Shown: one piece after another, positions 7,291 through 35,023 of the stretch
Layout of the letters: each line of letters begins with the position of its first letter
How positions within the stretch are numbered: the stretch's first letter is position 1
Assembly (NCBI GenBank): GCA_027013295.1
Contig: JALUXP010000113.1
Location: 1-35,471 of the forward strand
DNA from: Sulfurimonas sp.
Lineage (GTDB): Bacteria > Campylobacterota > Campylobacteria > Campylobacterales > Sulfurimonadaceae
DNA length: 35,471 bases
Direction of reading: 5' to 3'
The notes under the pieces: model-generated
Database searches by the model: none
The model's input: only the letters and a program-made list of their open reading frames with translations
What the model was told of the DNA's origin: nothing
Translations under genes and position numbers: made by a program

Positions 7291-8409
7291 ATGTTTTTTA
7301 ACAACAACCATCATTCAGAGAATGAAATTAAAAAGTATCAATTAGAGATTGAAACTTTAAAGCAACAAGTAGAGGATTTAACTTCTAAAAATAATGAGTT
7401 AGAAAAGCAAGCAGGGTATGCTGATAGCAATCAAATTATGAATGATTTAATCAAGGCATTAACACATGGTTTAACAGATGGATGCGATAGAGACTTAAAG
7501 CTTCTTCAAGGCGACCTAGGCAGTAATCTTGGTGCACTTGAAGATATAGATACTAAAAATCAAGAAAATAATGAGCATACAAACTCATGTTCTGTTGGTA
7601 TTGAAACTCTTTCTGATACTATGGGTTCATTACTAGAGCATATTTCAAATACATACGAAGAGGTCAACACATTAAATAATAATGTTGAAAGTATATCTGA
7701 TGTTATTAACTTGATCAAAGATATCTCTGACCAAACAAATCTCCTTGCTTTAAATGCTGCTATAGAAGCAGCAAGAGCAGGGGAACATGGTAGAGGATTT
7801 GCAGTTGTTGCAGATGAAGTAAGAAAGTTAGCCGAGAGAACTCAAAAAGCAACAAGTGAAGTAGAGATTTCAGTTTCATCTTTAAAACAAAACACCAGTG
7901 AGATTTATGAGCATTCTAAATCTATGGAAGAGTTATCACAAAGCTCAAATGAGCAGATGGATGAGTTCCAATCAAAGATGGAAATTTTAAGAGAAAACTC
8001 ACAAATGATTTCTCAAGAGAACAAAGATATAACTTATGCTGTTTTTATGGTGTTAGTGAAACTTGATCATCTTCTTTTTAAAGCAAATGGTTACAAAACT
8101 GTCTTTAATGGTAAGATAACTGGAACTTTTGCAGCTGATGATGAATGCCGACTTGGTAAGTGGTATCTTGAGGGGATTGGTAAAGATAAATTTGGTCAAT
8201 GTGCAAGTTATGGCAAAATGGCAGCACCACATAAAGAGGTTCATGACAATATTAAAAAAGCAGTTGAGTGTGTTGAAGCTGGAACATGTACTGAGCACTC
8301 TCAAAATGTGATGACATATTTTGATTCGGCAGAAAAAGCATCCATGAAAGTTATAGAATACCTAAATAATATGTTAGAAGAGGAAAAATCTTTGAGACAT
8401 AGCAAATAA
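7291..8409 (+). CDS. Soluble methyl-accepting chemotaxis protein with C-terminal CZB zinc-binding domain (TlpD-like)
   Basis: 372 residues with no membrane segment or signal peptide, so a cytoplasmic receptor. Residues about 8-45 form a coiled coil. The MCP signalling tip is about 140-182 ([20 protein letters not shown], then [20 protein letters not shown]). Residues about 255-340 form a chemoreceptor zinc-binding (CZB) domain with the ligands visible: His260 (VKLDHLLFK), Cys286 (CRLGKWY), His314 and His318 (PHKEVH). Architecture and size resemble Helicobacter TlpD, linked to reactive oxygen, hypochlorite and energy responses. It is transcribed away from the hook operon and is followed 10 bases later by an mnmC-type gene. 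Confidence 0.92.
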
Positions 8410-8419
8410 GATAAACTCT

Positions 8420-9193
8420 TTGGTAAAAAAATTTGATGATGCACTTCACTCCCTGACACTCAGTGAAGATGGCTCATATACAGCCTATTCAAAAGAGTAT
8501 GATGAGCATTATCACTCTACAAAAGATGGGGCTTTGCATGAATCATTACTCAAACATGTGATCCCCGCTTTAGAGTTAAAAAAAGAGTTCGTGGAGATAA
8601 ACATACTCGATATCTGTTTTGGCTTAGGTTTCAATACCCTTGCAACACTCTACTATGCACACAAAAAAAAGATACAAACTAAGATAAATATATACTCTCC
8701 AGAGCTAGATGCACAGCTAGTAAACTCACTTGTACATTTTACTTATCCAAAAGAGTTTAACCACTTGAGAGTTGTTATGGAGAGTTTAGTTGAAAAAGGG
8801 AGCTATGAAGATTCATCTATATCTATAGAGCTTTATCTTGGCGATGCACGAGTTTATCTAAAAAAGTTAATGGAGAAGCAGATAAAGTTTGACATAGTCT
8901 ATCAAGATGCTTTTTCCCCCTCAACAAATCCTATACTGTGGACTAAAGAGTATTTTAAAGATATAGCCTCACTCGTAAAAGAGGATGGTGTTGTAACAAC
9001 TTATTCTATCGCTTTTAAAACCCGTCTCGCTCTTTATGAAAATGGTTTTCATCTCTATATCAATAGTGCAGAGGAGATGAGAGATGCTACAGTTGCCTCA
9101 AAAACTCAATTGGTAGATTTTGAACTGGTTGATATGCCTCATAAGATCAAATGCAACAAGGGCATAGTTGCACTGAGTGATGCTACTATCTAG
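8420..9193 (+). CDS. mnmD: MnmC/MnmD-type tRNA (mnm5s2U34) methyltransferase
   Basis: 257 residues beginning at a TTG codon (TTGGTAAAA); no ATG is suitably placed. The family is the SAM-dependent methyltransferase domain (DUF752) that finishes mnm5U34 in tRNA wobble positions. Visible motifs: the SAM loop [19 protein letters not shown], the substrate-site acid run [20 protein letters not shown], and the [20 protein letters not shown] segment. It lacks the FAD oxidase domain of bimodular MnmC, so it is a stand-alone MnmD type. MnmG, which makes the cmnm5 precursor, is encoded elsewhere in the window. Its stop codon overlaps the 3' end of the convergent rhodanese-MCP gene by 8 bases. Confidence 0.85.
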
Positions 9194-11402
9194 TTTTAAA
9201 CTTATCAAGTTGCCCTTTAAGGGTTTGAGATATTTCATAAACTTCATTAGCACTATTTGAGATATTGAGAGCATTGTCTTTATTTTGCTTAACGATGTTG
9301 TCTATCACTTCAATATTATTGATGATAAGCTCTGCATTTTTTTGAACCTCTTCGGTGCTTGTTAGCGATGAGTTTGCTAAACCAGCTGTGCTTGTTATGA
9401 TACTTTTTGTCTCTTGAAGTTTCTTTTTCATAAGTTCAGAGTTATCACTAAGCATTTTTGTTTTTTGCACATTGTCATTCATATTTGTACTCGCATCTAT
9501 GATAGATTGGACAATGACGCTTACATTGCTATGGATCTCACCGATAGCCTTTTGTGTACTTTCAGCCAGTTTTCTTACTTCATCTGCAACTACCGCAAAG
9601 CCTCTTCCATGTTCACCTGCACGAGCAGCTTCTATGGCAGCATTGAGTGCTAGTAGATTGGTTTTGTCAGCAATATCTTCTATGATACTCAGGACATCTG
9701 TAATCTTTTGTGCATCATCAGTAAGTTGGTTGAGTTTTGCTGAGATATCTTCTTCCCTGTAAGCGTTTTCTTGGATTTGATTTACAATTTGTATCACATT
9801 TTTTTGAAGTTCTTCAAGATTGTTTTGAGCCTGTGTGGTTTCCTCTTGTGTCTTTTGTACATTTGATGAAGTGACAGAGAGTGTTCCTTTCATCTCATCA
9901 CTCATGCTTTTTGTTGTGTTTACTAACTCAAATTCTTGTGAAGCTCCATTGCTGATCGCTTCTGCACTATTTTTCATCTCTAAAGTATTTTGTGCATTGT
10001 TTTGAGAAGAATCCTTAGCATCATGAAGAACCTCTCCCACTTTTTCTATAAGATGGGCAAATGCTTTGTAGATCTCACCTAGCTCATCCCTTTTGTAGTC
10101 AACAAATTTTCGTGAAAGATCAAGCGTATCAAGCATTGAGACCATATTGTTCCTGATGCCAAGGATGGAGGACTTCATAAAGATATATAAAATAGTGTTG
10201 AGTGTTGCAGAGACAAAGATAAAAAAGACTATAAGGATGAGTACATCATAAAATGTTTTTTTGAGGTTTAGTGTACTTTGGTTATAGATCTCTCTTATTT
10301 TTATATTGACTTTTTGCTCAATAATATTGAACTGTTTATTGATGATAGCACTTGAGAGTGCCCACTCGTTTGATGCGAGATTTACTAACACCTTTTTATC
10401 CTCTTTGAGATAAGCCTGTTGGAGTGCATCTAAGAGATGCTCTGAATCTTTATACTCTTTTATGATGATATCAAAAGAGTTTTTTATTTGTGCATCTTTG
10501 TAAAATTCACTTTGCATCACATTGGAGATGATATTTTTCATCTTTTTTCTTGTATCTATGAGGGCGATCCTTGCCCCCTCAAATGCTACCAAACCTGTAA
10601 GAGAGTAGGAAAGATTATTTTGAATAGAATTAAAGTTATTGATTGCGTGGAGGAGTTCATTTTGTGGTTTAAAGTTATCTTCATAGATATGATTTATAGC
10701 TATCTGTCCATCTTTTGAGGAGTTAAGAGAAAAATACCCAATAATACCCATACTTAAAACGATGATAAAGATATTGCTAAGGAGTTTTGTGGAGATAAGA
10801 TAAGATTTTTTCATAATAATATGTTTAAACGCAAAAAACAAGATGATAGCCATCACAATGCCAATGATAACACCTACTGTAACATGAAAATTAAAATCAT
10901 TTTTTATGACTTTTGTATCCATTTTTCCTACAATGTTAACTCCATCAACCTCATAACCTGCTTTGGCATACTTACCTATACCCTCTCTTAACCAATATAC
11001 ATTAGTGTAACCTTCCTTGGCGGTTGTTACTGCAGCTTTGTAAGATTTCCAACATTTAATACCGTTGCAGTAAAAAATAAGCTCTTTTGATTTATCTGGA
11101 GATATGCGTGCATCATGGTAGATATCTTTAGAATTATCAAAATCAACTATTTTATTTGCATTGCCACCTTTTTCATCGTAAAAAGCAGAGATAGCACCTT
11201 TGATATGTTCAATAGAATACTCAGGAACTTTTCTAGTATCTACAAATACAGCACCATTTTTATATTTTTCATTGGCAGTTTTAGAGTCAACAACTCTAAC
11301 ATGAAACTTTGAGGCTATCTCAGAAGATGGGGTATCTGGTTTTGCGTAAAGGTTCGTAAAAAGGAGGGTTGTTGCAAAAAGTAAAGTTATTACAGATTTC
11401 AT
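9186..11402 (-). CDS. Membrane chemoreceptor with an N-terminal periplasmic rhodanese domain
   Basis: 738 residues. Residues 1-20 are a signal peptide. Residues about 33-155 form a rhodanese domain ([20 protein letters not shown]) with two cysteines in the active loop, C112-NGIK-C117-W. Hydrophobic spans follow at about 173-193 and 207-225, joined by a short Lys-rich loop that should be cytoplasmic. Residues about 228-385 look like a periplasmic four-helix sensor, followed by a third span (387-408), a HAMP-like linker, and the MCP hairpin ([20 protein letters not shown], then [16 protein letters not shown]). Predicted topology puts rhodanese and helical sensor both in the periplasm. A role in sensing sulfur species is an inference from domain content. 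Upstream is ribE; SD GGA lies before the ATG. Confidence 0.9.
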
Positions 11403-23047: not shown

Positions 23048-23410
23048 ATGGGAAAAATACTGATAGTGGATGATTCTAGTCTTATTCGTTCTGTTGCTGC
23101 AGGTGCTGCAACAGAAGCTGGACATGAACCGATAGTCGCAGAGAATGGGCAAGAGGGTTTGGATATTTTAACAAGAGAGAAGATTGACCTAATATTTTCT
23201 GATGTAAATATGCCTGTTATGGGTGGACTGGAGATGGTAGAGAACATTAAGCAAAATGATGCTTATAAATATATACCTATCATAATGCTCACAACAGAGT
23301 CAAATCCTGAGCTTAAAGCAAAAGGACAAGCACTTGGCGTAAAAGCTTGGATGCTAAAGCCATTTAATAAAAAGAAGTTTTTTATGGTTGTTAAAAAGCT
23401 TCTAGCCTAA
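23048..23410 (+). CDS. cheY: CheY-like single-domain response regulator
   Basis: 120 residues, one receiver domain. Acidic pair Asp8-Asp9 (VDDSS), phospho-acceptor Asp52 (FSDVNMP), Thr82/Thr83 and Lys104 (LKPF) are all present, so it should be phosphorylated by the CheA two genes downstream. Position 101 is Trp where CheY proteins usually have Tyr or Phe. GGAGAAG precedes the ATG. It is the first gene of the chemosensory operon. Whether it binds the flagellar switch or serves as a phosphate sink cannot be told from sequence. Confidence 0.92.
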   Translation: MGKILIVDDSSLIRSVAAGAATEAGHEPIVAENGQEGLDILTREKIDLIFSDVNMPVMGGLEMVENIKQNDAYKYIPIIMLTTESNPELKAKGQALGVKAWMLKPFNKKKFFMVVKKLLA

Positions 23411-23420
23411 TGAGACTCAG

Positions 23421-23687
23421 ATGAAAATAGATAAAGATGAGCTTACCATTTATGAAGTAGAGGCTTTTTACGAAGAGTTGTTAGCTGAATTTGACAAAGG
23501 TGATATTGCTGTAGATATTAGCAGTCTCAACAAGATAGACATGAGTGTTATCCAGCTTTTGTTAAGTGCAAAAAAAAGTTGCCAAGAATCTTCTAAAGCT
23601 TTTCAAATCATAGGTGCAAACAGCGAAGTAACAAAAATATTTCAAGAGTCTGGATGCCAAACACTACTAGGAGTTACGGATGAATGA
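23421..23687 (+). CDS. STAS-domain protein
   Basis: 88 residues, one anti-sigma-antagonist-like STAS fold: IAVDISSLNKIDMSVIQLLL followed by SAKKSCQESSKAFQIIGANS. The Ser in DMSVIQ occupies the position phosphorylated in SpoIIAA-like proteins. It overlaps cheA by 8 bases, so it is translationally coupled. Similar small STAS proteins occur in non-canonical chemosensory operons, where their job is unclear. No anti-sigma kinase is nearby. Confidence 0.82.
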   Translation: MKIDKDELTIYEVEAFYEELLAEFDKGDIAVDISSLNKIDMSVIQLLLSAKKSCQESSKAFQIIGANSEVTKIFQESGCQTLLGVTDE

Positions 23688-25752
23688 AGAACTTGAACTC
23701 TTTGTAGAAGATGTTGACGAACAGTTGACATTTATGGAAAATGCTCTTGTAGCTATGCAAGAGAATGGTGTAGATGATGAGAGTCTAGGTGCTCTCTTTC
23801 GTGCGATGCACACCATCAAAGGTACTGCTGGTATGTTCGGCTTTGATGATGTTGTGGGGTTTGCTCATGTTGCTGAAAATCTTTTAAGTGATGTAAGAGA
23901 TGGCAAAGTTGAGTTAAATGAGGAGATGATAGAGACTTTTTTGCAGTCTAAAGATCACACACAAACTCTTGTTGATTTAGCAGTGGATGGTGAGGTACTT
24001 GATGCGAAAACACAAGCTAAAAATGACCATCTTTTAGCCATACTTAAGTCGATGCTCCCAGATGCTAAAAAAGAACCTCTAAAGATAGATGCAGAGACTT
24101 TAGAAGATGAAGAGGGCGGTGAAAAACTTTGGCATATCTCTTTGAGACTCAAGCCACATTTCTTTGCGAGTGGTATGGACATCATAAACATATTGAACTT
24201 TTTTAACATACTTGGAGAGGTAAAAAAACTTTTATGTATAGATACAAATATTCCTACACTTAAAGATATGAACCCTACTGAGGCTTATATAGGGTATGAG
24301 ATACTTTTTTTGAGTGATGCTAGTTATGCTGAGATAGAAGAGGTTTTTGAGTTTGTTATGGATGATGTTGTGCTTGAGATATTTGAGGCAACAGATATGG
24401 ATATGTTGCAAGCTTTATGTGATAATGAAGAGGGACTCAGAGAAGAACTTGTTTTTGCTGGCTTTGATAATGCTTCAAGAGTAAGAAGCACAGATGCAAG
24501 AGAAGAAGAGGTTCAAAAAACAGAAGTTAAAGAGATCTCAAAAGAACCATCTTCAAAAAAAGAGATAAAAAAAGAGACAAAGAAAGAGACAAAGAAAAGT
24601 TTCTCTTTGCGTGTTGACTCGAGCAAAATAGACTCTCTCATAAACCAAATCTCAGAGATGGTAATAGCCAATGCTAAAGTAACTCAAAGAGCTGATGCTC
24701 TTGATGATAATGAGCTAAGTGAATCAGCAACTATACTTAGTGATATGTTAGAAGAGATACGAACAGGCATTATGAACATCCGTATGGTACAAGTTGGCGA
24801 TAGTTTCAACAAGTTTAAGCGAATCGTGAATGATGTAGCTAAAAAAGTAGACAAAGAGATAGATTTTGAGATAGTTGGTGGCGAGACTGAACTTGATAAA
24901 ATGGTGGTAGAGAAGATCTCTGACCCACTGATGCACATGCTTAGGAACTCTATAGATCATGGAGTAGAAACACCACAAGAGAGAAAAGCAGTAGGAAAAA
25001 GTCCCAAAGGACATGTAAGACTTAAAACTTACCCAGATGCAGGTACTATTGTTATAGAGATAAGTGATGATGGGCGAGGTCTTCCAAGAGATAAGATTTT
25101 AGCAAAAGCGATCGCAAATGGCTTGGTTGAAGAGAACAATAATCTCAGCGACAAAGAGATTTACAATCTTATCTTTGCAGCAGGTCTCTCAACAGCTGAA
25201 AAGGTCTCAGATATCTCTGGTCGTGGTGTTGGGATGGATGTTGTCAAAAGAAACATAGAGGCTTTGCGTGGAACAGTAGAGATAGACTCTAAATCTGGTG
25301 AGGGAAGTCTCTTTACTATACGACTTCCACTTACTCTTGCTATCATTGACGGTTTTCTCATACAGTCAGGAAATACTAAATATATCATCCCTTTAGAGAT
25401 GATTCAAGAGTGCATAGAACTTGATGCACATTACAAAAAAGAGATGGATGGAAATGAGTTTATCAACCTTCGTGACTCGATGCTTCCTCTCTTAGATGTT
25501 CGTAGCTATTTTAACGAGCAAGAGACACAGAGTGAACGAGAAAATATCGTAGTGGTTCGTTTTGGAGAGTACAAGGTGGGAATGATGGTAGATGAACTCT
25601 TTGGAGAGTTTCAAACAGTTATAAAACCTCTTGGAGAGGTGTTTAGTAATGTTGTAGGTGTTAGTGGAGGAACTATTTTAGGAAGTGGCGAGATAGCTCT
25701 TATATTTGATATTCCAAAACTTATGGAACACAAGATCAGAGAATCTCTGTAG
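23680..25752 (+). CDS. cheA: Chemotaxis histidine kinase CheA
   Basis: 690 residues. HPt domain about 1-105 with His44 (RAMHTIKGTAGMFGF); a P2-like region about 148-235 starting KLWHISLRLKPHFFASGMDI; Lys/Glu-rich linker 275-306; dimerisation region about 307-375; ATPase domain with N box LRNSIDHGVE (421-430), G1 DDGRGLP (463-469) and G2 GRGVGMD (514-520); CheW-like domain about 550-690. All catalytic features are intact. Codons from about 620 to the stop are copied 1296 bp downstream in a near-identical direct repeat, but this upstream copy is the complete gene. Confidence 0.97.
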   Translation: MNEELELFVEDVDEQLTFMENALVAMQENGVDDESLGALFRAMHTIKGTAGMFGFDDVVGFAHVAENLLSDVRDGKVELNEEMIETFLQSKDHTQTLVDLAVDGEVLDAKTQAKNDHLLAILKSMLPDAKKEPLKIDAETLEDEEGGEKLWHISLRLKPHFFASGMDIINILNFFNILGEVKKLLCIDTNIPTLKDMNPTEAYIGYEILFLSDASYAEIEEVFEFVMDDVVLEIFEATDMDMLQALCDNEEGLREELVFAGFDNASRVRSTDAREEEVQKTEVKEISKEPSSKKEIKKETKKETKKSFSLRVDSSKIDSLINQISEMVIANAKVTQRADALDDNELSESATILSDMLEEIRTGIMNIRMVQVGDSFNKFKRIVNDVAKKVDKEIDFEIVGGETELDKMVVEKISDPLMHMLRNSIDHGVETPQERKAVGKSPKGHVRLKTYPDAGTIVIEISDDGRGLPRDKILAKAIANGLVEENNNLSDKEIYNLIFAAGLSTAEKVSDISGRGVGMDVVKRNIEALRGTVEIDSKSGEGSLFTIRLPLTLAIIDGFLIQSGNTKYIIPLEMIQECIELDAHYKKEMDGNEFINLRDSMLPLLDVRSYFNEQETQSERENIVVVRFGEYKVGMMVDELFGEFQTVIKPLGEVFSNVVGVSGGTILGSGEIALIFDIPKLMEHKIRESL

Positions 25753-25839
25753 ATGAAGTATGATATTGCCTATTTTCAAAGAGGAGGAAGAGATGTACAA
25801 GGTAGATATAGAAAGATTACCATCTTTCATGATAGGTGA
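25538..25839 (+). repeat. Direct repeat copy 1 (302 bp): cheA 3' end and following bases
   Basis: Identical to 26834-27135 except at 25819 (A/G) and 25828 (C/T), with no indels (constant offset 1296). It covers the last 71 codons of cheA, the stop, an RBS-like GAGGAGGAAGAG, and the first 15 or so codons of the small Rpn-like ORF. Sequence flanking the two copies is unrelated on both sides. Confidence 0.97.
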
Positions 25840-26005
25840 AGAAAGAGGTTTAGAGCAAGGTTTAGAGCAAGGTGTTTATAAACAGAATATAAAAGTTGCA
25901 AAAGCACTGTTATCAAAAAATAGTGACATTACTTTTATAGTGGATATTACTGGTTTAAGTGTTGTCGAGGTTCAAAAGCTTCAGAGTTGTGAAGAGAAAA
26001 ACTAG
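25793..26005 (+). pseudogene. C-terminal remnant of an Rpn/PD-(D/E)XK family gene
   Basis: 70 codons from the ATG that follows GAGGAGGAAGAG (an upstream ATG at 25760 is also in frame). The product, including GEERGLEQGLEQGVY and the end DITFIVDITGLSVVEVQKLQ, matches the Gly-Leu-Glu-Gln linker and terminal helical motif of Rpn-family proteins such as the one at 21979, but the whole nuclease domain is missing. The stop abuts the ATG of the MNT gene. It could still be translated as a small protein, but it most likely represents a truncated gene. Confidence 0.75.
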
Positions 26006-26353
26006 ATGTTAGAGATGAGTATAGAAACATTGAAAAAAGAGATAGTCAGTAGACTAAAACCTTTAGAGTTGCAACAAATAACACTATTTGGTTCATTTGC
26101 TTACGGGAAGCCAAATGAAGATAGTGACATAGATTTATATGTTGTTACTTCAGATGACTTTATACCAAAAAGTTATGCTCAGAGTATGTCTATCAGATTA
26201 AAAGTTGCTAATGCTTTAGAGGAGTTACAAGCGATTATTCCTATAGATATAGTGACACATACAAAAAAAATGTATGAAAAATTTGTTGAACAAAATAGTA
26301 GTTTTTCAAAAGAAATTTTACAAAAGGGGGAGTTGTTATGGGGACATCACTAG
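26006..26353 (+). CDS. MNT-type minimal nucleotidyltransferase (probable antitoxin partner of HEPN)
   Basis: 115 residues. It shows the polymerase-beta nucleotidyltransferase motif: Gly29-Ser30 (LFGSFAYGK), then Asp41-x-Asp43 (EDSDIDLYVV), with a third acid at Asp81 (IPIDIVTHTK), so catalysis looks possible. Small enzymes of this family next to HEPN proteins form toxin-antitoxin or defence pairs. The gene overlaps the HEPN gene by 16 bases, indicating a tightly coupled unit. The start ATG abuts the previous stop; a second ATG is at codon 4. Confidence 0.88.
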   Translation: MLEMSIETLKKEIVSRLKPLELQQITLFGSFAYGKPNEDSDIDLYVVTSDDFIPKSYAQSMSIRLKVANALEELQAIIPIDIVTHTKKMYEKFVEQNSSFSKEILQKGELLWGHH

Positions 26354-26727
26354 CTTTAGATTGGTTGCAATCTGCAAATGATGACCTTGAAGTTATTAGA
26401 AAAATAATTAATGATGAAAGATTAACTCATATCGTTGCTTTTCATGCTCAGCAGTCGATAGAAAAATCTTTTAAAGCAGTTATGGAGTATAAAAATATAA
26501 GTGTACCAAAAGTACATAAACTACAATTTCTGATAGCTAAAATTGATTTGAAAATAGAAATGGAAGAGAGTATATTAAAAGTCTTAGATGAACTCTATAT
26601 AGACTCAAGATACCCTGGTAATTTAGGTTTATTGCCCTATGGTAAACCAACACTGAGTGATGCTGATTTATTTTTTAAACAAGCATTAAATATTTATTTA
26701 AAAATAGAAAACAAAATAAAAGGATAA
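26338..26727 (+). CDS. HEPN-domain protein (PF05168-like), partner of MNT
   Basis: 129 residues, an all-helical HEPN protein: WLQSANDDLEVIRKIINDER, then IVAFHAQQSIEKSFKAVMEY, then VPKVHKLQFLIAKID and LYIDSRYPG. HxAQQxxEKxxKA and the Y..xRYP ending are signatures of the HEPN family paired with nucleotidyltransferases. The RX4-6H RNase motif of toxic HepT-type proteins is not evident, so toxicity is not assured. A nucleotide-binding or RNA-targeting role with MNT is the usual suggestion. GGGGGAG precedes the ATG inside the MNT gene. Confidence 0.87.
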   Translation: MGTSLALDWLQSANDDLEVIRKIINDERLTHIVAFHAQQSIEKSFKAVMEYKNISVPKVHKLQFLIAKIDLKIEMEESILKVLDELYIDSRYPGNLGLLPYGKPTLSDADLFFKQALNIYLKIENKIKG

Positions 26728-26730
26728 AAA

Positions 26731-27048
26731 ATGGCAGAAAAAAACTTAGAGAAAGATTGTTAAAAACTTAAAAAAGAGAATAAGCAGTTAAAAGTAAACT
26801 TTAAACAGTTAGTAGATGAGATAGGACTTCTTAGAGAAAATATCGTAGTGGTTCGTTTTGGAGAGTACAAGGTGGGAATGATGGTAGATGAACTCTTTGG
26901 AGAGTTTCAAACAGTTATAAAACCTCTTGGAGAGGTGTTTAGTAATGTTGTAGGTGTTAGTGGAGGAACTATTTTAGGAAGTGGCGAGATAGCTCTTATA
27001 TTTGATATTCCAAAACTTATGGAACACAAGATCAGAGAATCTCTGTAG
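26731..27048 (+). pseudogene. Broken coiled-coil ORF fused in frame to a duplicated CheA C-terminus
   Basis: An ATG four bases after the HEPN stop opens a frame (MAEKNLEKDC) that hits TAA at 26761-26763 and then continues in the same frame as KLKKENKQLKVNFKQLVDEI and GLLRE. At 26834 it passes without a shift into ENIVVVRFGEYKVGMMVDEL, the CheA C-terminus, ending at the CheA stop. So one nonsense codon splits an otherwise continuous hybrid of a Lys/Glu-rich coiled coil and the last 70 CheA residues. Internal GTG (26848) could start a 66-residue piece, but no ribosome site supports it. The coiled-coil part is not recognised. Confidence 0.75.
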
Positions 27049-27135
27049 ATGAAGTATGATATTGCCTATTTTCAAAGAGGAGGAAGAGATGTACAAGGTA
27101 GATATAGAAAGATTGCCATCTTTTATGATAGGTGA
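26834..27135 (+). repeat. Direct repeat copy 2 (302 bp)
   Basis: The second copy of 25538-25839, with differences only at 27115 and 27124. After the copied cheA stop (27046-27048) it repeats the RBS-like GAGGAGGAAGAG and MYKVDIERLPSFMIGE, then diverges to GEVKGTQK and a TGA that overlaps the start of the PAS gene. Confidence 0.97.
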
Positions 27136-27153: not shown

Positions 27154-27993
27154 ATGAATAGTTTAGAGAAAGAAGTTAATGTTAAAGAGGGTGATGTTTT
27201 AGTGAGTATGACCGATGTAAAGGGTAACATAACCTATGCAAATGATATATTTTGTCAAACGGCTGGATATACAAGAGAGGAGATACTAGGAAAACCTCAC
27301 AATATTGTAAGACATCCAGATATGCCAAAGGTTGTTTTTAAAGTTTTGTGGGATGCTGTTCTTGATGGAAAGTCAGTAAGTGCCTTTGTAAAGAACAAAG
27401 TAAATGGTGGTGGATTTTACTGGGTAAGAGCTTTTGTAGCTCCTGTTATGGTAAATGGAACTATATCGCATATTATCTCCTATAGACGACGCATTGAAGA
27501 TTCTCAAAAAGAGGTTCTTAACTCTTTGTATGGGACTTTAGTGGATTACGAGAGGAGACACAGTGTTAAAGAGTCTTATCAGTTCTTTATGGATTTTTTA
27601 GATAAAAGGAAGTTAAACTACCGAGAGTTTCTAAATCGTATTAGTGAAAATAAACAGGTTACAAATGTAGATGCTCTCAATATTGACTTAACGCATGCTA
27701 AAGTTGATCACCTTATCTTTAGTATAAATATTGAGGAGAGAGTAAAGCGTGGAGAAAAAAACTTTGAAGTAACAAAACCGTGTTGTTGCAGAGTTGGAAA
27801 GTGGATAGAGTCTCTCTCTGGGACCGCTATGGCTCACTCTAGGGAGTGGAAAGATTTTGTAAGTTCTCATAGTGTTTTTCATAACAATATGCAACTATAT
27901 GCAAATGGACAAAGTTCTATATTGGCTCAAGCAAAAGAGGATGAACTCAAAATATATGAGAGTTTACAAAAAGTTATAGATACTACAAAATAA
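27154..27993 (+). CDS. Aer-type PAS protein with C-terminal CZB domain
   Basis: 279 residues, soluble. PAS domain about 13-112 closely follows E. coli Aer: ITYANDIFCQTAGYTREEIL, then PHNIVRHPDMPKVVFKVLWD and GFYWVRAFVAPV; the VRHPDMP stretch is part of the Aer flavin site, so FAD binding and redox/energy sensing are likely. Residues about 178-255 form a CZB zinc domain with His186 (VDHLIF), Cys212 (CRVGKW), His239 and His243 (HSVFH). There is no MCP hairpin, so it probably signals through the adjacent poly-HAMP receptor, much as CetB works with CetA in Campylobacter. GTGAAAGGAAC lies before the ATG. Confidence 0.9.
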   Translation: MNSLEKEVNVKEGDVLVSMTDVKGNITYANDIFCQTAGYTREEILGKPHNIVRHPDMPKVVFKVLWDAVLDGKSVSAFVKNKVNGGGFYWVRAFVAPVMVNGTISHIISYRRRIEDSQKEVLNSLYGTLVDYERRHSVKESYQFFMDFLDKRKLNYREFLNRISENKQVTNVDALNIDLTHAKVDHLIFSINIEERVKRGEKNFEVTKPCCCRVGKWIESLSGTAMAHSREWKDFVSSHSVFHNNMQLYANGQSSILAQAKEDELKIYESLQKVIDTTK

Positions 27994-28008
27994 ACAAAGG
28001 AAAAAAAA

Positions 28009-29958
28009 ATGGCAAAGATAAAAGAAAAAAAAAGCAGTAGTGAAAAAGATGTTGCAGTTATGGTAGATGCTCTACAAGCATTGGTAAATGGTGATTTTAA
28101 CTGTATGTTAAAGACAAAGAACTCTAAACTATCTGATGTTTACAACAAGCTTTGTACGCAACTTAGTAATCTTCATGATGATTCTATGATGATGCACAAG
28201 GCATCTCAAGAGGGACAACTTGATGTTCGTATAGATACTACAAAATACAATGGTACCTTTTCAGGCATTACAGATGGCATAAACTCCACTATGGACTTAA
28301 CTGTTGGAAACTTAAGAATAGTTGGTTCGGCGATAAGTGACTTAGGACAGGGAGAATTTAGTGCCCAAGTAAGTGAGCATATGAGCGGTGATTTTGCTGT
28401 TTTAAAAGATGGAGTCAATAACTTAAGTGCAAACCTATCTAACCTTATTGAAGATGCAAATATTTTATCAGCCGCTGTTGGAAATGGGGAGACTAAAATA
28501 AGAATCCAAACAGGAAAATATGAAAATGATTTTCTAACATTAACAAATAGTCTCAATACAACGATTGAAACATTTGATAAAGCTTTTGCAGATGCCATTT
28601 TTGGTTTTAACGCTTTGCAAAATGGAAAGTTTGATGCAAGAATAGAGACAGAATACCAAGGGGACTTTGATGTAGTTAAACAAGCAGCCAACAATGCAGC
28701 GGCACAACTTGAAAAACTACTTAAAAATTATAATGATGGATATGCTGAGATAGAGAAAGGGAATATATCAGCTAGAGTTGAAACAGAGGGCTTTACAAAT
28801 GACTACTTAAAAATAATCGGTGTTGTTAATGATACTTTATCAGTTGTTCAAAATGCTTTTGCAGATACAATATTTGGTTTGAATGCACTTCAAAACGGAG
28901 AGCTTGATAAAAGAATTACAACAGAATATCAAGGTGATTTTGATGTAGTAAAACAAGCTGTGAACAATACAGCATCAACACTCCAAGATATTATTAAGGA
29001 AACAGGGACTGTTCTCTCGTGTATGGCAGATGGTGATATGACAGTTACAATAAAAAGTAATTTTGTTGGAGATACAGAGGCTATTAAAACTGCAACAAAT
29101 ACAATGGCTGAAAAACTTCAAACTATTGTTGGTCGTATTAACAGTGGAGTAACAGAGATAGCATCAGCTTCTACACAAGTAAGTGCATCTTCGCAGTCTC
29201 TTTCTCAAGGTGCAACTGAACAAGCAAGTTCACTAGAAGAGACAAGTGCAGCTCTTGAAGAGATGAGTGGAAGTGTCGCAGAGTCTGCAAAAAATGCACA
29301 AAAAACAAATGACTTAGCAGAAGAGGCATCTGTTATGGCTATAGATGGTGGAGAAGCCGTTACGAAAACTGTAGATGCTATGGTTCTCATCAGTGAAAAA
29401 ATCTCTATCATCGAAGATATAGTTTACCAAACAAACCTCTTAGCACTCAATGCCGCCATCGAAGCAGCAAGAGCAGGGGAGCATGGTAAAGGTTTTGCAG
29501 TAGTTGCTGCAGAGGTGCGAAAACTAGCAAAACGCTCACAAGTAGCAGCACAAGAGATAAGTACCATCACAACTGATAGTGTGAAGATAAGTGAAAAAGC
29601 AGGTAGTCTCATAAGTAGTGTTGTACCAAAGATTCAAGAAACAGCAGAACTTATCAAAGATATAGCAAATGCAGCAAAAGAGCAAGATATAGGTCTAGGT
29701 CAGATAAACACTGCCATGACACAACTAGACCAAGTGACACAAACAAACGCAGCATCTTCTCAAGAGATGGCAAGTGCTAGTGAAGAGCTTAACGGACAAG
29801 CAAACTCACTCAACCAAATGATGAGTTTCTTTAAAGTAGCAGAGGGAGATATGTTTAGCACTCCAGCCCCTCTAGCAGCACCGCAAGCACGCCAGACTGC
29901 ACAAACACCAGAGACCTCTAACGGTGGTTTAGATCTTCGCCAATTCGATAGATACTAA
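28009..29958 (+). CDS. Soluble poly-HAMP methyl-accepting chemotaxis protein
   Basis: 649 residues with no signal peptide or membrane span. Residues about 20-374 are a chain of about eight HAMP-like units of some 45 residues (near 20-56, 60-102, 103-147, 148-193, 194-238, 239-284, 285-329, 330-374). Units 5 and 7 are nearly the same ([20 protein letters not shown] against [20 protein letters not shown]). The MCP hairpin follows with [20 protein letters not shown] then [21 protein letters not shown] Pro/Ala-rich tail ends LDLRQFDRY, which could be a CheR/CheB tether, though it does not match the classic NWETF. It has no input domain of its own, so the PAS-CZB protein upstream is the likely sensor. 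Confidence 0.93.
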
Positions 29959-29968
29959 AGAGTTAAAG

Positions 29969-30466
29969 GTGAGCCGTAAAAATAATGAACTAGAGAGTGA
30001 AGTCGCAAATAATCAAAACCAGTATCTTCTTTTTTTGGTTGGCGGTGTTCTCTATGGCGTAGAAGCTTTAAAAGCACAAGAGATAGTGGAATATAGTAGC
30101 ATTACAAAAGTACCTACTATGAAGAGTTTTGTAAAAGGTGTGACAAATATACGAGGAAATATCGTTCCTGTTATTGATCTGCTCGATAGATTTGGGCTTG
30201 GTCAAACTAGCATAGCCGATAAAACATCTATAGTAGTTGTCAATCATGAAAAAGATGAAGGTATTATGTCAATAGGCATCATAATTGATGAAGTGTATGA
30301 AGTAGATAGCATAGATGTTGAAGACCTTACAAAAGCACCTGAGTTTGGCTCAAAGATTGATGCAAAGTATATCCTTCATATGGGAAAATACAACAAAGAG
30401 TATATCGCTATTTTAAATACTAATACTATTTTAAATATTGGTGAACTCTCACAACTAGCACTATAA
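29969..30466 (+). CDS. cheW: Chemotaxis adaptor CheW
   Basis: 165 residues from a GTG start (no nearby ATG fits; AAAGAG lies upstream). A single CheW domain spans about 18-160: YLLFLVGGVLYGVEALKAQE, TNIRGNIVPVIDLLDRFGL and IGIIIDEVYEVDSIDVEDL are typical. It couples the soluble receptor to CheA. It follows the receptor gene by 10 bases and precedes the CheV-like gene by 10 bases. Confidence 0.93.
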   Translation: MSRKNNELESEVANNQNQYLLFLVGGVLYGVEALKAQEIVEYSSITKVPTMKSFVKGVTNIRGNIVPVIDLLDRFGLGQTSIADKTSIVVVNHEKDEGIMSIGIIIDEVYEVDSIDVEDLTKAPEFGSKIDAKYILHMGKYNKEYIAILNTNTILNIGELSQLAL

Positions 30467-30476
30467 AAGAGTAAAT

Positions 30477-31427
30477 ATGCAAGAGTATGATGAAGAAACA
30501 GAAAATATAGACAATCTTATGGATGATGATGACGATGAGTTAGACCTTGTTGCACTTGTCAGTGCAAATGCAAATGATACAAGCCAGTACCTCGTTTTTG
30601 AAGGGAGTGATGGGCAGTATTATGCAAAAAATGTCTCTAAGATAGAAGAACTTTTAGTCTATAAAGATATTGACATCGCCAAAACTAACAATGAAGGACT
30701 TATCGAAGGAACTGCCGATATTCGTGGAAATATGACAACGATTATCAACTTTGATAAGTGGTTTGGCAATGAGGTTCTTGATGAAAGTAAGTATGAGCTT
30801 ATTATCTTAGCTCATTATGGTGGACATAGACTCGGCATCGTGGTAAAGCGTGTAGAGTACATAGTAAATATTCCTCCAGAGACTATGACAGACAACTCTC
30901 AAAATGATGAAAAAACATCTTTTATAACTCGGGTAAACATAGGGCAAAAGAGCCAGATGTGTCTCATCTTTGACAGTGATAAGATGCTTTTAGATGTCTT
31001 TGACACCATAGACACGAAGGCGATGGAAGATACGAAGCAGATTGAAAAGGTTAAAAATGACAGGCTCATCCTTTTTGCAGATGATAGTAGGTTTATCCGT
31101 AAAATGGCAGAGTCCCTTTTTAATAAAATGGGCTTAAAGTACAGAATGTATGAAAATGGACAGCTTTTACTTGAGGATTTGAAATATGTCTCGCCTGAGG
31201 AGATATCCCTTTTTATCACTGACTTAGAGATGCCTGTTCTTGGTGGAAGAGATGTTATTGATAACATAAGAAAAGAGAAAAAGTATGATGGTATAAATAT
31301 CATAGTGCATACAAATATGTCAAATGACAATATGGCAGAATCCCTTCTCGATGCTGGTGCACAAGATATTATTGGAAAGGTCAATATGCTCGCTCTTAGT
31401 GAAGCTATGCAAAAGTATATGGTGTAG
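30477..31427 (+). CDS. cheV: CheV-like adaptor (CheW domain fused to receiver)
   Basis: 316 residues. A very acidic N-terminus (residues 2-23) precedes a CheW-like domain (about 30-178, with ADIRGNMTTIINFDKWFG). A receiver domain follows at about 194-316: acidic pair Asp202-Asp203 (ADDSRF), phospho-acceptor Asp249 (FITDLEMP) and a Lys in the DIIGKVNM segment (Lys301). Such proteins adjust receptor-kinase coupling by phosphorylation. A 2-base gap separates it from cheR. The acidic leader is unusual for CheV. Confidence 0.9.
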   Translation: MQEYDEETENIDNLMDDDDDELDLVALVSANANDTSQYLVFEGSDGQYYAKNVSKIEELLVYKDIDIAKTNNEGLIEGTADIRGNMTTIINFDKWFGNEVLDESKYELIILAHYGGHRLGIVVKRVEYIVNIPPETMTDNSQNDEKTSFITRVNIGQKSQMCLIFDSDKMLLDVFDTIDTKAMEDTKQIEKVKNDRLILFADDSRFIRKMAESLFNKMGLKYRMYENGQLLLEDLKYVSPEEISLFITDLEMPVLGGRDVIDNIRKEKKYDGINIIVHTNMSNDNMAESLLDAGAQDIIGKVNMLALSEAMQKYMV

Positions 31428-31429
31428 AG

Positions 31430-32233
31430 ATGGCAATAATCTTAGCTGACAATGAATTTATAACTGTTCAAAAGTTGATATTTGCAGAGGTGGGGATTGA
31501 CTTACAATCTTCTAAAAAACTACTTGTACAGAGCCGACTTCTTAAGAGGTTACTTTTTTATAAATTTGATAACTATCTCGACTATATCCGTCTTGTGCAA
31601 GTCAATGCCAAAGAACGAATAGAGATGATAAATCTCATCACTACAAATGAGACCTATTTTTTTAGAGAGATTGACCACTATGAGTATCTCCAAAAAGAGA
31701 TACTTCCAAAACACCCTTTTAAAGCAAAGTTTCGCTTTTGGAGTGCCGCCGCATCTGTAGGAGCGGAGGCTTATTCTATAGCTATGCTACTAGATAAAAG
31801 TATGGCTAGGAGTGATTGGAAAATAGTAGGTACAGATATAAACACAGATGTTATCAAAAAAGCTCGTATCGGACTTTACCCAGCAAAATGGGCAGACAAG
31901 ATTCCCCTAGAGTTAAAAAGAGAGTATTGTCTAAAAGGACGAGGTCGCCATGAGGGGCAGTTTCTTATGGACAGAGGGCTTGTGGAAAATATGGAGTTTA
32001 GTGTAGGAAATCTTATGAAATACAATGGTGAAGTTGGAAAATTTGATGTTATATGGCTCAGAAATGTACTTATCTACTTTGATGACGACACGAAACAGTT
32101 GGTTGTAGATAATGTTCTTAAAAACCTTAAAGTGGGTGGATACTTTTTCATCTCACTTACTGAAAACCTCAATATGATTAACACTGCATCCCTAGAGAGT
32201 GTAGCAACCTCTGTATATAAGAAGATAAAATGA
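31430..32233 (+). CDS. cheR: Chemoreceptor methyltransferase CheR
   Basis: 267 residues. It methylates glutamates of the receptor using SAM. Motifs: MINLITTNETYFFREIDHYE, the SAM loop FWSAAASVGAEAYSIAMLL, GTDINTDVIKKARIGLY and FDVIWLRNVLIYFD. The SAM loop reads SVGAEAYS where most CheR proteins have STGEEPYS, three changes in a conserved turn, though the remaining motifs are intact. The stop overlaps the start of the ParA-like gene by 4 bases (ATGA). Confidence 0.94.
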   Translation: MAIILADNEFITVQKLIFAEVGIDLQSSKKLLVQSRLLKRLLFYKFDNYLDYIRLVQVNAKERIEMINLITTNETYFFREIDHYEYLQKEILPKHPFKAKFRFWSAAASVGAEAYSIAMLLDKSMARSDWKIVGTDINTDVIKKARIGLYPAKWADKIPLELKREYCLKGRGRHEGQFLMDRGLVENMEFSVGNLMKYNGEVGKFDVIWLRNVLIYFDDDTKQLVVDNVLKNLKVGGYFFISLTENLNMINTASLESVATSVYKKIK

Positions 32234-33060
32234 GAGAAAAAAATCTGAAAGTTGCTGTGATCTCAAGTAAGGGTGGCGTTGGGAAAAGTACAGTTTCTAT
32301 GCAACTTGTAGTACCTTTTCTTTTTGAGCGATGTGGTAAAAACATCGTTCGACACTATGAGTTTGATGATGAAAACAACGATAGCTCTAGTTTTGGAGCA
32401 AGTGTTTTAAGTGTCAGAGAACAGGTCAGCGTATCTTCTCCACTGCTACGAGAAGAGTTAGCTGAGATATTTGCAAAAGATGGGGCATTGTGTTTAGATA
32501 TAGGGGCTAACAAAACAACAATGACTCTCATAGATGCACTGAGTGACAGTGGGATGATCAACTTTTTGGATTTTGTTGTTATACCCATACTCGATGGTGA
32601 GCAAGATGCGATAAATGCTAGTTTTATCTACAGTGTGCTTAAGGGTTATAATGGAAATCTTAAATTTATCTTTGTGCTTAATCGTGTCAAAAATTTGGAG
32701 TATGCTCATTATCAGTTTGAGAACTATTTTGGAGACTCTCGTGGCATCTTTAAAAATATAAATGCAGTAGTTGATAATCTTTTTGAAGAAGATAAAGATA
32801 ATTATCTTCTTATGCTAGATGATGAGATAATCAAATATAGTCGAAGATTTGGTTTGACTATTTATGAGATAGAGCAACAGAAAAAAGATTTCATTAAAGC
32901 ACTTGAGAGTTCATTTACAAATCTCTCTACAAAAGAGGAGATAAAGCTTCTTAGTTTTAAAAACTATATATCTAAAAGTGCAAAAATCTATATGAATGAT
33001 GTGCTTTTAGTAGCATTTAAAAAAATAGACACAATCTTAGAAGGAAAAAGTTATGAGTAA
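32230..33060 (+). CDS. ParA/MinD-like ATPase in the chemosensory operon
   Basis: 276 residues. A deviant Walker A, KGGVGKST (14-21), is typical of ParA/MinD/SIMIBI ATPases; a Walker A'-like segment reads LCLDIGANKTTMTLIDAL and a strand FVVIPILDGEQDA follows, somewhat like the plasmid StbB-type branch. The C-terminal 90 residues are not recognised. ParA-like proteins in chemotaxis operons (for example ParC of Vibrio and PpfA of Rhodobacter) position receptor clusters. Lying between cheR and cheB, this one is a candidate for that role. No ParB or centromere is nearby. Confidence 0.82.
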   Translation: MREKNLKVAVISSKGGVGKSTVSMQLVVPFLFERCGKNIVRHYEFDDENNDSSSFGASVLSVREQVSVSSPLLREELAEIFAKDGALCLDIGANKTTMTLIDALSDSGMINFLDFVVIPILDGEQDAINASFIYSVLKGYNGNLKFIFVLNRVKNLEYAHYQFENYFGDSRGIFKNINAVVDNLFEEDKDNYLLMLDDEIIKYSRRFGLTIYEIEQQKKDFIKALESSFTNLSTKEEIKLLSFKNYISKSAKIYMNDVLLVAFKKIDTILEGKSYE

Positions 33061-33958
33061 AGATTATGGTAAATATTTACAATTTTTAGCATCAGAGTAC
33101 AATATACTCTATGTTGGGAAAGATTCACAAGAGATATATGATGAGACATCTGAGTACTTTTTATCTGCTTCAAAAGTAGATATCAATGCCCAAATTCTTG
33201 ATAAAATAGATACGATTTTAACAAAAAGGCATGTAAATGTAGTAGTTTTTGATGCTCAAGATAACAATCCCTTGATTGGAGACTTTTTTAAGGCAATAAA
33301 CTCTTTCAGTAAAGATATTATGACTCTTCTAATGTTTGAACCAAAAGAGTATAAAAAACTTTTTGATATTGTTCCCTATGTAGATATGAACATATCTTAC
33401 CCTATAGAAAAAGAGAGATTTCAAAAGAAGCTTTTTACCCTCTTAAGTCGTTCCTATGCTCTTAACTCTATAGGTCGAAGAGAGATCATCTTGAAACAGG
33501 GGAGTGTAAGTGAGGACTCTATAGATAAGTTCTTTGATACTTATGAGGGGAGTGCTATGTTTTTAGCAGATGATTTGATGGATGTTGTTAAAAATCTTAA
33601 CGATGGCAACCTTTCGCATCAATTTTTTGCAAATATAGCAGATAAGCTTGATGAAGTTGCATCTATCTTTTCTAAAGCACAACAAACTCAAAGTGTCACA
33701 CCTGTTTATGAAGATATAGCTTCTTACTTAAGAAGTATGAAATTTGAAGAGATTGAGCCACAAAACTTAGCTGCTTTTAACTACCTTTCTGAGATACTGA
33801 GTGATGTAAGTATATACTTGATGGATATGTTTGTAGATAGAATATTTAAAGATGTATATATATTTAAAGACTCTTTAGATAACAATATGCAGTTTATGAA
33901 AAGTAAACTTGAAGGAAAAAGTGAAGATGAAGATGATAGCGAATTGGATTTTTTTTAA
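33053..33958 (+). CDS. Unrecognised protein with degenerate receiver-like N-terminus
   Basis: 301 residues, soluble. Residues about 14-135 have the strand/helix rhythm of a receiver: YNILYVGKDSQEIYDETSEY, VNVVVFDAQDNNPLIGDFFK, IMTLLMFEPKEY and ISYPIEKERFQKKLFTLLSR. Asp67 sits where the phospho-acceptor would be, but the N-terminal acidic pair (VGKDS) and the conserved lysine (SYP instead of xKP) are missing, so phosphorylation is unlikely. The remainder is helical with an acidic tail ending SELDFF. It overlaps the ParA-like gene by 8 bases and abuts cheB, so it is tied to the chemosensory system, possibly as partner of the ATPase. The function is unknown. Confidence 0.7.
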   Translation: MSKDYGKYLQFLASEYNILYVGKDSQEIYDETSEYFLSASKVDINAQILDKIDTILTKRHVNVVVFDAQDNNPLIGDFFKAINSFSKDIMTLLMFEPKEYKKLFDIVPYVDMNISYPIEKERFQKKLFTLLSRSYALNSIGRREIILKQGSVSEDSIDKFFDTYEGSAMFLADDLMDVVKNLNDGNLSHQFFANIADKLDEVASIFSKAQQTQSVTPVYEDIASYLRSMKFEEIEPQNLAAFNYLSEILSDVSIYLMDMFVDRIFKDVYIFKDSLDNNMQFMKSKLEGKSEDEDDSELDFF

Positions 33959-35023
33959 ATGATTAAGGTATTTATAATAGATGACTCAGCACTTGTTAGG
34001 AATGAATTTAAGAAAATTTTTGCACCTATCAATGATATAGAGATTATAGGGAGTTCAGCTAATCCCGTTGATGCATTTGAAGTATTTAAAAGAACTGGAT
34101 TACCTGATGTTTTCATACTCGACATAGAGATGCCAAAGATGGATGGACTGACATTTTTAGAGATGATAGGTAAGCAAAAACCCATCCCTACCATCATCTG
34201 TTCAACACTTGTCACAAGAGGAAGCTCTTCTGCTATAGATGCCATGCGTATGGGTGCTGTTGATATTGTCCTTAAACCTACAACCAACATAGATCAGTTT
34301 TTTGGAGACAAGAGCGGAGAATTTGTCTCTAAGGTAAGAATTGCGGCAGCCTCTCGTGCTACATATATTCAAAACATAAGAAGAACTAGTACAAGTAAAA
34401 TACTCGATGCCAAACAGGTGTCGAGTAGTATAAAAGCTGCAAGTTCTCTCCCTCCATCTAAAAAGATCATTGCCATTGGTGCTTCAACGGGTGGTGTGCA
34501 GATTTTAGAAGAGTTACTTTTGCAACTTGAACCAAACCATCCACCTATTGTGATAACACAACATATGCCAGCTGGTTTTACAGCATCATTTGCACAGAGG
34601 CTTGACCAGATACTTCCCTCCTCTCGTGTCAAAGAGGCACAAGATGGTGATGCTCTGATGCATGGTCGCATACTCATAGCCCCAGGAGATATGCACATGG
34701 AGGTACACAAAAATGGATTTCAATACAAAGTGGCTTTAAAAAATTACCCTAAAGTAAACTCACATAAGCCAAGTGTCAATGTTCTCTTTCGATCAATGAG
34801 CAAAGAAGTGGGCATCTTTGGTGTTGGGTTCATTTTAACAGGTATGGGAGATGATGGAGCAACTGGACTCTTAGAGATGAAAAATGCGGGTGCTGCTACC
34901 TATGCTCAAGATGAAAAAAGTTGTATCGTCTATGGTATGCCAAAAAAAGCAGTTGATCTCGGTGCTGCGAAACAAAGTCTCTCCCTTAAAGAGATAGCAA
35001 ATATTATAAATACAGTGAGATAA
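33959..35023 (+). CDS. cheB: Protein-glutamate methylesterase CheB
   Basis: 354 residues. Receiver domain about 1-120 with Asp8-Asp9 (IDDSA), phospho-acceptor Asp55 (ILDIEMPKMDG), Thr/Ser81-82 and Lys106 (LKP). Linker about 120-168. Methylesterase domain about 168-354 with catalytic Ser176 (IGASTGG), His202 (TQHMPAGFTASFAQRL) and Asp299 (GMGDDGATG). It demethylates or deamidates receptors when phosphorylated by CheA. It starts directly after the preceding stop. Confidence 0.96.
   Translation: MIKVFIIDDSALVRNEFKKIFAPINDIEIIGSSANPVDAFEVFKRTGLPDVFILDIEMPKMDGLTFLEMIGKQKPIPTIICSTLVTRGSSSAIDAMRMGAVDIVLKPTTNIDQFFGDKSGEFVSKVRIAAASRATYIQNIRRTSTSKILDAKQVSSSIKAASSLPPSKKIIAIGASTGGVQILEELLLQLEPNHPPIVITQHMPAGFTASFAQRLDQILPSSRVKEAQDGDALMHGRILIAPGDMHMEVHKNGFQYKVALKNYPKVNSHKPSVNVLFRSMSKEVGIFGVGFILTGMGDDGATGLLEMKNAGAATYAQDEKSCIVYGMPKKAVDLGAAKQSLSLKEIANIINTVR

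Follow-up and report, generated by a model that had tools for sequence, protein, structure and literature searches.

In Campylobacter jejuni, the CetA/CetB pair divides a chemoreceptor between neighboring genes, with an Aer-like PAS domain on a small soluble protein (CetB) and a single HAMP domain plus signaling hairpin on a membrane-anchored partner (CetA), and a contact from PAS to HAMP has been proposed (PMC2628428). Aer2/McpB of Pseudomonas aeruginosa, by comparison, is a soluble poly-HAMP receptor encoded in its own che operon (class F7), with a built-in heme PAS domain, a 36H hairpin, and a C-terminal CheR tether of the form x-[HFYW]-xx-[HFYW], the motif defined in PMC7184735. In TlpD and other CZB chemoreceptors, which have a 3His/1Cys CZB domain, all parts are carried on one MCP, and Helicobacter pylori TlpD additionally has an N-terminal PAS domain without a ligand pocket (PMC12871147). 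A survey of CZB proteins describes the reactive cysteine as sensing oxidants and forming a lid over the zinc core, and none of the seven architecture groups named there is a PAS-CZB protein without output (PMC8262984). Finally, the F8 class, as represented by PSPTO_0912 of Pseudomonas syringae, brings together a 34H receptor with a transmembrane region, a C-terminal pentapeptide, and a loop-bearing CheR in one cluster, for which the available part of the published description mentions no PAS-CZB protein.

The locus described here, from a Sulfurimonas sp., consists of known parts in an uncommon arrangement, and is best read as a variant of the bipartite energy-taxis receptor placed in a dedicated pathway. 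Like CetB, its sensor is a small soluble protein with an Aer-type PAS domain and FAD-site residues of the same type, followed by a neighbor gene with HAMP units and a hairpin; unlike CetA, this neighbor has many HAMP units and no membrane span, and unlike CetB, the sensor has a CZB domain and is encoded within a complete che operon. The receptor shares with Aer2 its solubility, its own che operon, the C-terminal tether, and HAMP units related in sequence, whereas the PAS domain is of the flavin type and on a separate protein, and the hairpin is 34H-like. Compared with TlpD, the PAS-CZB protein lacks a hairpin, and its zinc-site cysteine lies within a CCC motif. We consider it moderately probable that the PAS-CZB protein and the poly-HAMP MCP form the dedicated two-input sensor unit of a second, self-contained chemosensory pathway.

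Locus and genomes analyzed

The window—the whole stretch of DNA analyzed—comprises positions 1–35,471 of the forward strand of contig JALUXP010000113.1 (assembly GCA_027013295.1); its features are listed in Table 1. Orthologs of the PAS-CZB protein were sought in 135 genomes of the same genus and 397 genomes of the phylum (Campylobacterota), most of which are drafts, with contig ends concealing the operon slot in several relatives.

Table 1. Features of the second che operon and its sensor pair, with positions in the window.
Feature	Coordinates	Strand	Basis
cheY	23048..23410	+	sequence; conserved gene order in 13 genomes
Small STAS-like protein, conserved in operon	23421..23687	+	synteny; STAS assigned by eye
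cheA (Hpt, dimerization, ATPase, and CheW domains)	23680..25752	+	Pfam
PAS-CZB sensor, 279 aa, without output domain	27154..27993	+	Pfam, PDB, model
Aer-type PAS domain, aa 12–128	27187..27537	+	alignment to Aer, constant offset 4
CZB domain (Pfam aa 186–247); predicted zinc ligands H186, C212, H239, H243	27709..27894	+	
CCC motif C210–C212; last Cys is predicted zinc ligand	27781..27789	+	
Soluble poly-HAMP MCP, 649 aa	28009..29958	+	Pfam; no membrane span
Eight HAMP units, aa 13–375	28045..29133	+	repeat alignment, leave-one-out, Aer2 HAMP match
MCP signaling hairpin, 34H-like	29308..29793	+	Pfam; alignment to Tsr
C-terminal pentapeptide QFDRY, fits x-[HFYW]-xx-[HFYW]	29941..29955	+	
cheW	29969..30466	+	Pfam
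cheV (CheW and receiver)	30477..31427	+	Pfam
cheR with loop insertion	31430..32233	+	Pfam; comparison with genome's other CheR
ParA/MinD-like ATPase	32230..33060	+	weak Pfam ParA/CbiA; synteny across genomes
Operon-specific 301-aa protein	33053..33958	+	no significant Pfam match; conserved in operon across genomes
cheB	33959..35023	+	Pfam

An Aer-type PAS protein and a soluble poly-HAMP receptor

Both open reading frames of the pair were found at the coordinates given in the initial annotation, which had described the first as a PAS protein with an Aer-type flavin site and no signaling hairpin. Pfam recognizes a PAS domain (PAS_3, E 1e-12) and a CZB domain in it and no output domain. The best solved relative of the PAS half in a PDB sequence search was the Escherichia coli Aer PAS domain (8dik, E 1e-29), on which the structure model of the protein (pLDDT 87) superposed with a Z-score of 19.2 and an rmsd of 1.2 over 127 residues. 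All seven Aer FAD-site residues compared are identical, with H49, R53, H54, D56, W66, N81, and R111 corresponding to Aer H53, R57, H58, D60, W70, N85, and R115 (H53, R57, W70, N85, and R115 are listed in PMC9668731, and R57, H58, and D60 in PMC2628428). Furthermore, the protein naturally carries G24, V61, and V95 at the positions of Aer G28, V65, and V99, residues that let the PAS domain hold FAD without HAMP and that occur naturally in CetB (PMC2628428). Judged from these residues, the PAS domain is predicted to bind FAD.

The account of the second gene as an MCP with about eight HAMP-like units and a hairpin, lacking a membrane span and an input domain, also held. Pfam detected HAMP_2 in four stretches, together with MCPsignal, while repeat alignment resolved eight units of 44–46 aa each, of which units 2–7 scored well and units 1 and 8 weakly against leave-one-out profiles. 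The HAMP nature of these repeats had been named beforehand as a point on which the reading could fall, and at the sequence level it is upheld by the HAMP_2 matches and by the similarity of a profile of the units to the HAMP domains of P. aeruginosa Aer2 (3vol, E 5e-9); the structure model of the receptor, built from three usable sequences only, reached a pLDDT of 42. No membrane span was found in the protein (highest 19-residue hydropathy mean 1.18), nor did Pfam find any input domain or built-in PAS. Since seven residues are absent from each arm relative to the 36H receptor Tsr—a symmetrical 7+7 residue deletion in one alignment—we call the hairpin 34H-like. Receptors of the same operon in other genomes have 2 to 9 recognizable HAMP units, and most end in D-L-R-x-F-[DE]-R-[YF], which fits the CheR tether motif. 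One of them (G130; L194, 243–2120) has its own, different Cys-rich PAS domain between HAMP units.

The CZB domain and its predicted zinc site

The CZB domain of the PAS-CZB protein scored 27.1 bits in a Pfam hmmscan, slightly below the cut-off of 29.4, and 30.0 bits in a six-frame search, and that of an ortholog (L008) reached 31.9 bits. Homology was established by a profile-profile match (hhalign) between this half of the protein and canonical CZB domains (probability 98.2, E 5e-14), in agreement with the annotation of a CZB domain with all four zinc ligands, here a 3His/1Cys set of H186, C212, H239, and H243. A profile of the same half searched against the PDB reached the DgcZ structure 3t9o at E 0.31 only, on a par with unrelated chains. 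CZB fragments of neighboring MCPs, which had misaligned onto the PAS domain, were excluded from the alignment used for prediction of the PAS-CZB structure, in which the C-terminal half was modeled as a helical bundle with fair confidence. The fold-search matches listed for the model were all PAS domains; as these filled the lists, no CZB structure was among them, which is not evidence against a CZB fold.

The four ligand positions are invariant in all 11 aligned orthologs, and on this pattern the domain is predicted to bind zinc. The zinc-site cysteine is part of a CCC motif in 11 of 12 PAS-CZB proteins and in 0 of the 57 other CZB domains recognized in the fetched loci, and the motif may have a redox role. 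However, one further ortholog (G507) retains the CZB domain with a degenerate zinc site, two or more of its four ligand positions being changed; therefore, zinc is not required everywhere. This protein favors an alternative in which the CZB domain serves mainly for dimerization or docking, zinc being structural where present and sensing proceeding through the PAS flavin only. The first helix of canonical CZB domains makes up much of their dimer interface (PMC8262984), and one relative (G006) has a PAS domain without CZB in the same operon slot, both in line with this alternative. Nonetheless, invariance of the ligands over long distances in the other 11 orthologs, and conservation of the CCC motif specifically in PAS-CZB proteins, argue against it, and we regard a mainly structural role as unlikely.

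The combination of flavin redox sensing with a zinc/cysteine switch in one small protein had been judged unusual, which applies to the polypeptide rather than to the pairing. In nine fetched loci, a PAS-only gene is followed by an overlapping MCP-CZB gene, an arrangement common across the phylum and also present in this genome; therefore, pairing of an Aer-type PAS domain with CZB is not unusual, and we rejected the notion that the pairing itself is rare. The pair in this genome (contig C73; L101, G000, 707–2580) consists of a PAS-only gene and, immediately downstream, a gene for a soluble MCP that bears CZB at its C-terminus, the same modules divided the opposite way. Though likewise combining an Aer-type PAS domain and CZB within one gene pair, these pairs differ in carrying CZB on the MCP and in having a PAS domain from a different clade. 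The rare element is thus a CZB domain carried on a detachable, output-less sensor, CZB being usually found on the receptor in the phylum. A soluble TlpD-like MCP-CZB is also encoded in the window (7291–8409).

A complete second chemosensory operon

The PAS-CZB protein and the poly-HAMP MCP are part of a complete, dedicated second che operon, ordered cheY-STAS-cheA-PASCZB-MCP-cheW-cheV-cheR-(parA-like)-unknown-cheB. The tip sequence of the MCP differs from those of all 17 other MCP regions of the genome, and the CheR of the operon has a loop insertion that the only other CheR of the genome lacks. Together with the tether motif, the distinct receptor tip and loop-bearing CheR suggest that this pathway and the main array are insulated from each other. 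A loop insertion is also reported in CheR from the F8 system of P. syringae (PMC11253619), and 34H receptors have been associated with F8 systems (PMC9321776; PMC11253619); the operon probably belongs to class F8.

The output of this array may be gene regulation or second-messenger control rather than flagellar taxis, with inputs the same as those we propose. F3 is taken as the main motility class in the phylum, extra classes having one or two receptors each (PMC9321776), and the operon includes STAS-like and ParA-like proteins. No output gene was identified, however, and there are a cheY in the operon and a flagellar hook gene in the window (769–2901), such that we rate a non-taxis output as a serious contender somewhat short of probable.

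Distribution and history of the operon slot

Orthologs of the PAS-CZB protein (frames of about 280–305 aa) occur in 10 of the 135 same-genus genomes and, elsewhere in the phylum, in three others (G190, G507, and G048), and a fusion peculiar to this genome was accordingly rejected. In all 13 genomes, from four families, the gene directly precedes the poly-HAMP MCP within cheY-STAS-cheA-PASCZB-MCP, with the remaining order retained where the contig continues. Co-occurrence of the two genes in relatives, on which the annotation had made its case depend, is thereby confirmed. One of these operons (G507; L160, 6646–8154) has cheW and cheV fused as one gene. Among the matches in the 135 same-genus and 397 phylum genomes, no PAS-CZB protein lay outside the operon; other CZB frames of roughly 140–370 aa from the genome searches were MCP-CZB or CZB-only proteins, none being PAS-CZB, and no plasmid record covered 80% of the PAS-CZB protein in one place.

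In three relatives (G081, G152, and G153), the slot retains the MCP with no adjacent PAS gene, which indicates that the MCP is not strictly dependent on PAS, and in four (G001, G019, G095, and G147), it holds neither. The description of the pair as a two-piece cytoplasmic version of Aer2/CetAB thus stands as regards domain content, gene order in 13 genomes, Aer2-like HAMP units, and C-terminal tether, and is corrected in that the pair belongs to a whole che operon and the MCP exists without PAS in a few relatives. These relatives, as well as the 13 matches to Aer-type PAS domains that this genome contains, would suit a reading in which the two proteins are neighbors and not partners, the PAS-CZB protein addressing another receptor or CheW/CheV, and the MCP hearing another Aer-type PAS protein or setting array gain. 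We consider this improbable, as adjacency is unbroken, a single PAS lineage is bound to the slot, and the MCP in the operon of the PAS-CZB protein is the only one of the genome with its tip sequence.

In a tree of PAS domains, with long branches in several rows, all PAS-CZB proteins and the PAS domain from the slot in G006 formed one clade (99/89). On the CheA tree, PAS-CZB proteins are scattered over deep branches, with at least three changes needed, a pattern in keeping with an old fusion followed by losses.

Proposed signaling by the pair

In the two-input sensor unit that we favor, the PAS-CZB protein would act as a soluble CetB-like sensor, its PAS domain binding FAD and tracking cellular redox state, and its CZB domain binding zinc through the four ligands and providing a second input, in the form of zinc occupancy or of an oxidized zinc thiolate. 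This zinc/thiol input would probably be tuned by the other two cysteines of the CCC motif. A dimer of the sensor is proposed to dock onto the adjacent MCP at its HAMP array, the units of which would relay the change to the hairpin and on to the operon's own CheA, CheW, and CheV; adaptation would be provided by the CheR of the operon, tethered at the C-terminal pentapeptide, and by CheB. Docking, signal direction, and output are inferred in this scheme. More tentatively, the PAS-CZB protein may be a two-input redox integrator, in which flavin redox state is combined with oxidants or free zinc sensed by the CCC zinc thiolate and passed through the poly-HAMP relay to a private array.

If the proposed partnership is correct, this is a natural, fully soluble system with sensor and HAMP relay as separate molecules, which would permit in vitro reconstitution and titration of sensor-to-HAMP signaling, a process still mostly inferred in the case of Aer and CetAB. 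The one operon slot offers a natural series—PAS-CZB, PAS alone, no PAS, and zinc site lost—in which the contribution of CZB can be compared, and the CCC motif predicts thiol/zinc chemistry undescribed for other CZB domains in the cited literature.

Other features of the window

Upstream of the PAS-CZB gene, a segment (25538–27096) is bounded by an exact 263-bp duplicate of the cheA 3′ end (25538–25800 and 26834–27096), which encloses a fragment resembling Rpn and a pair of MNT/HEPN toxin-antitoxin-like genes (26006–26727, named by eye). A promoter scan around the segment found sites no more numerous than expected by chance. The PAS-CZB gene follows cheA directly in a close relative (G091), and the segment is either a recent insertion or an assembly artifact. 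Elsewhere in the window, the minus strand encodes an MCP with an N-terminal rhodanese-like domain (9186–11402), possibly a sulfur-linked receptor.
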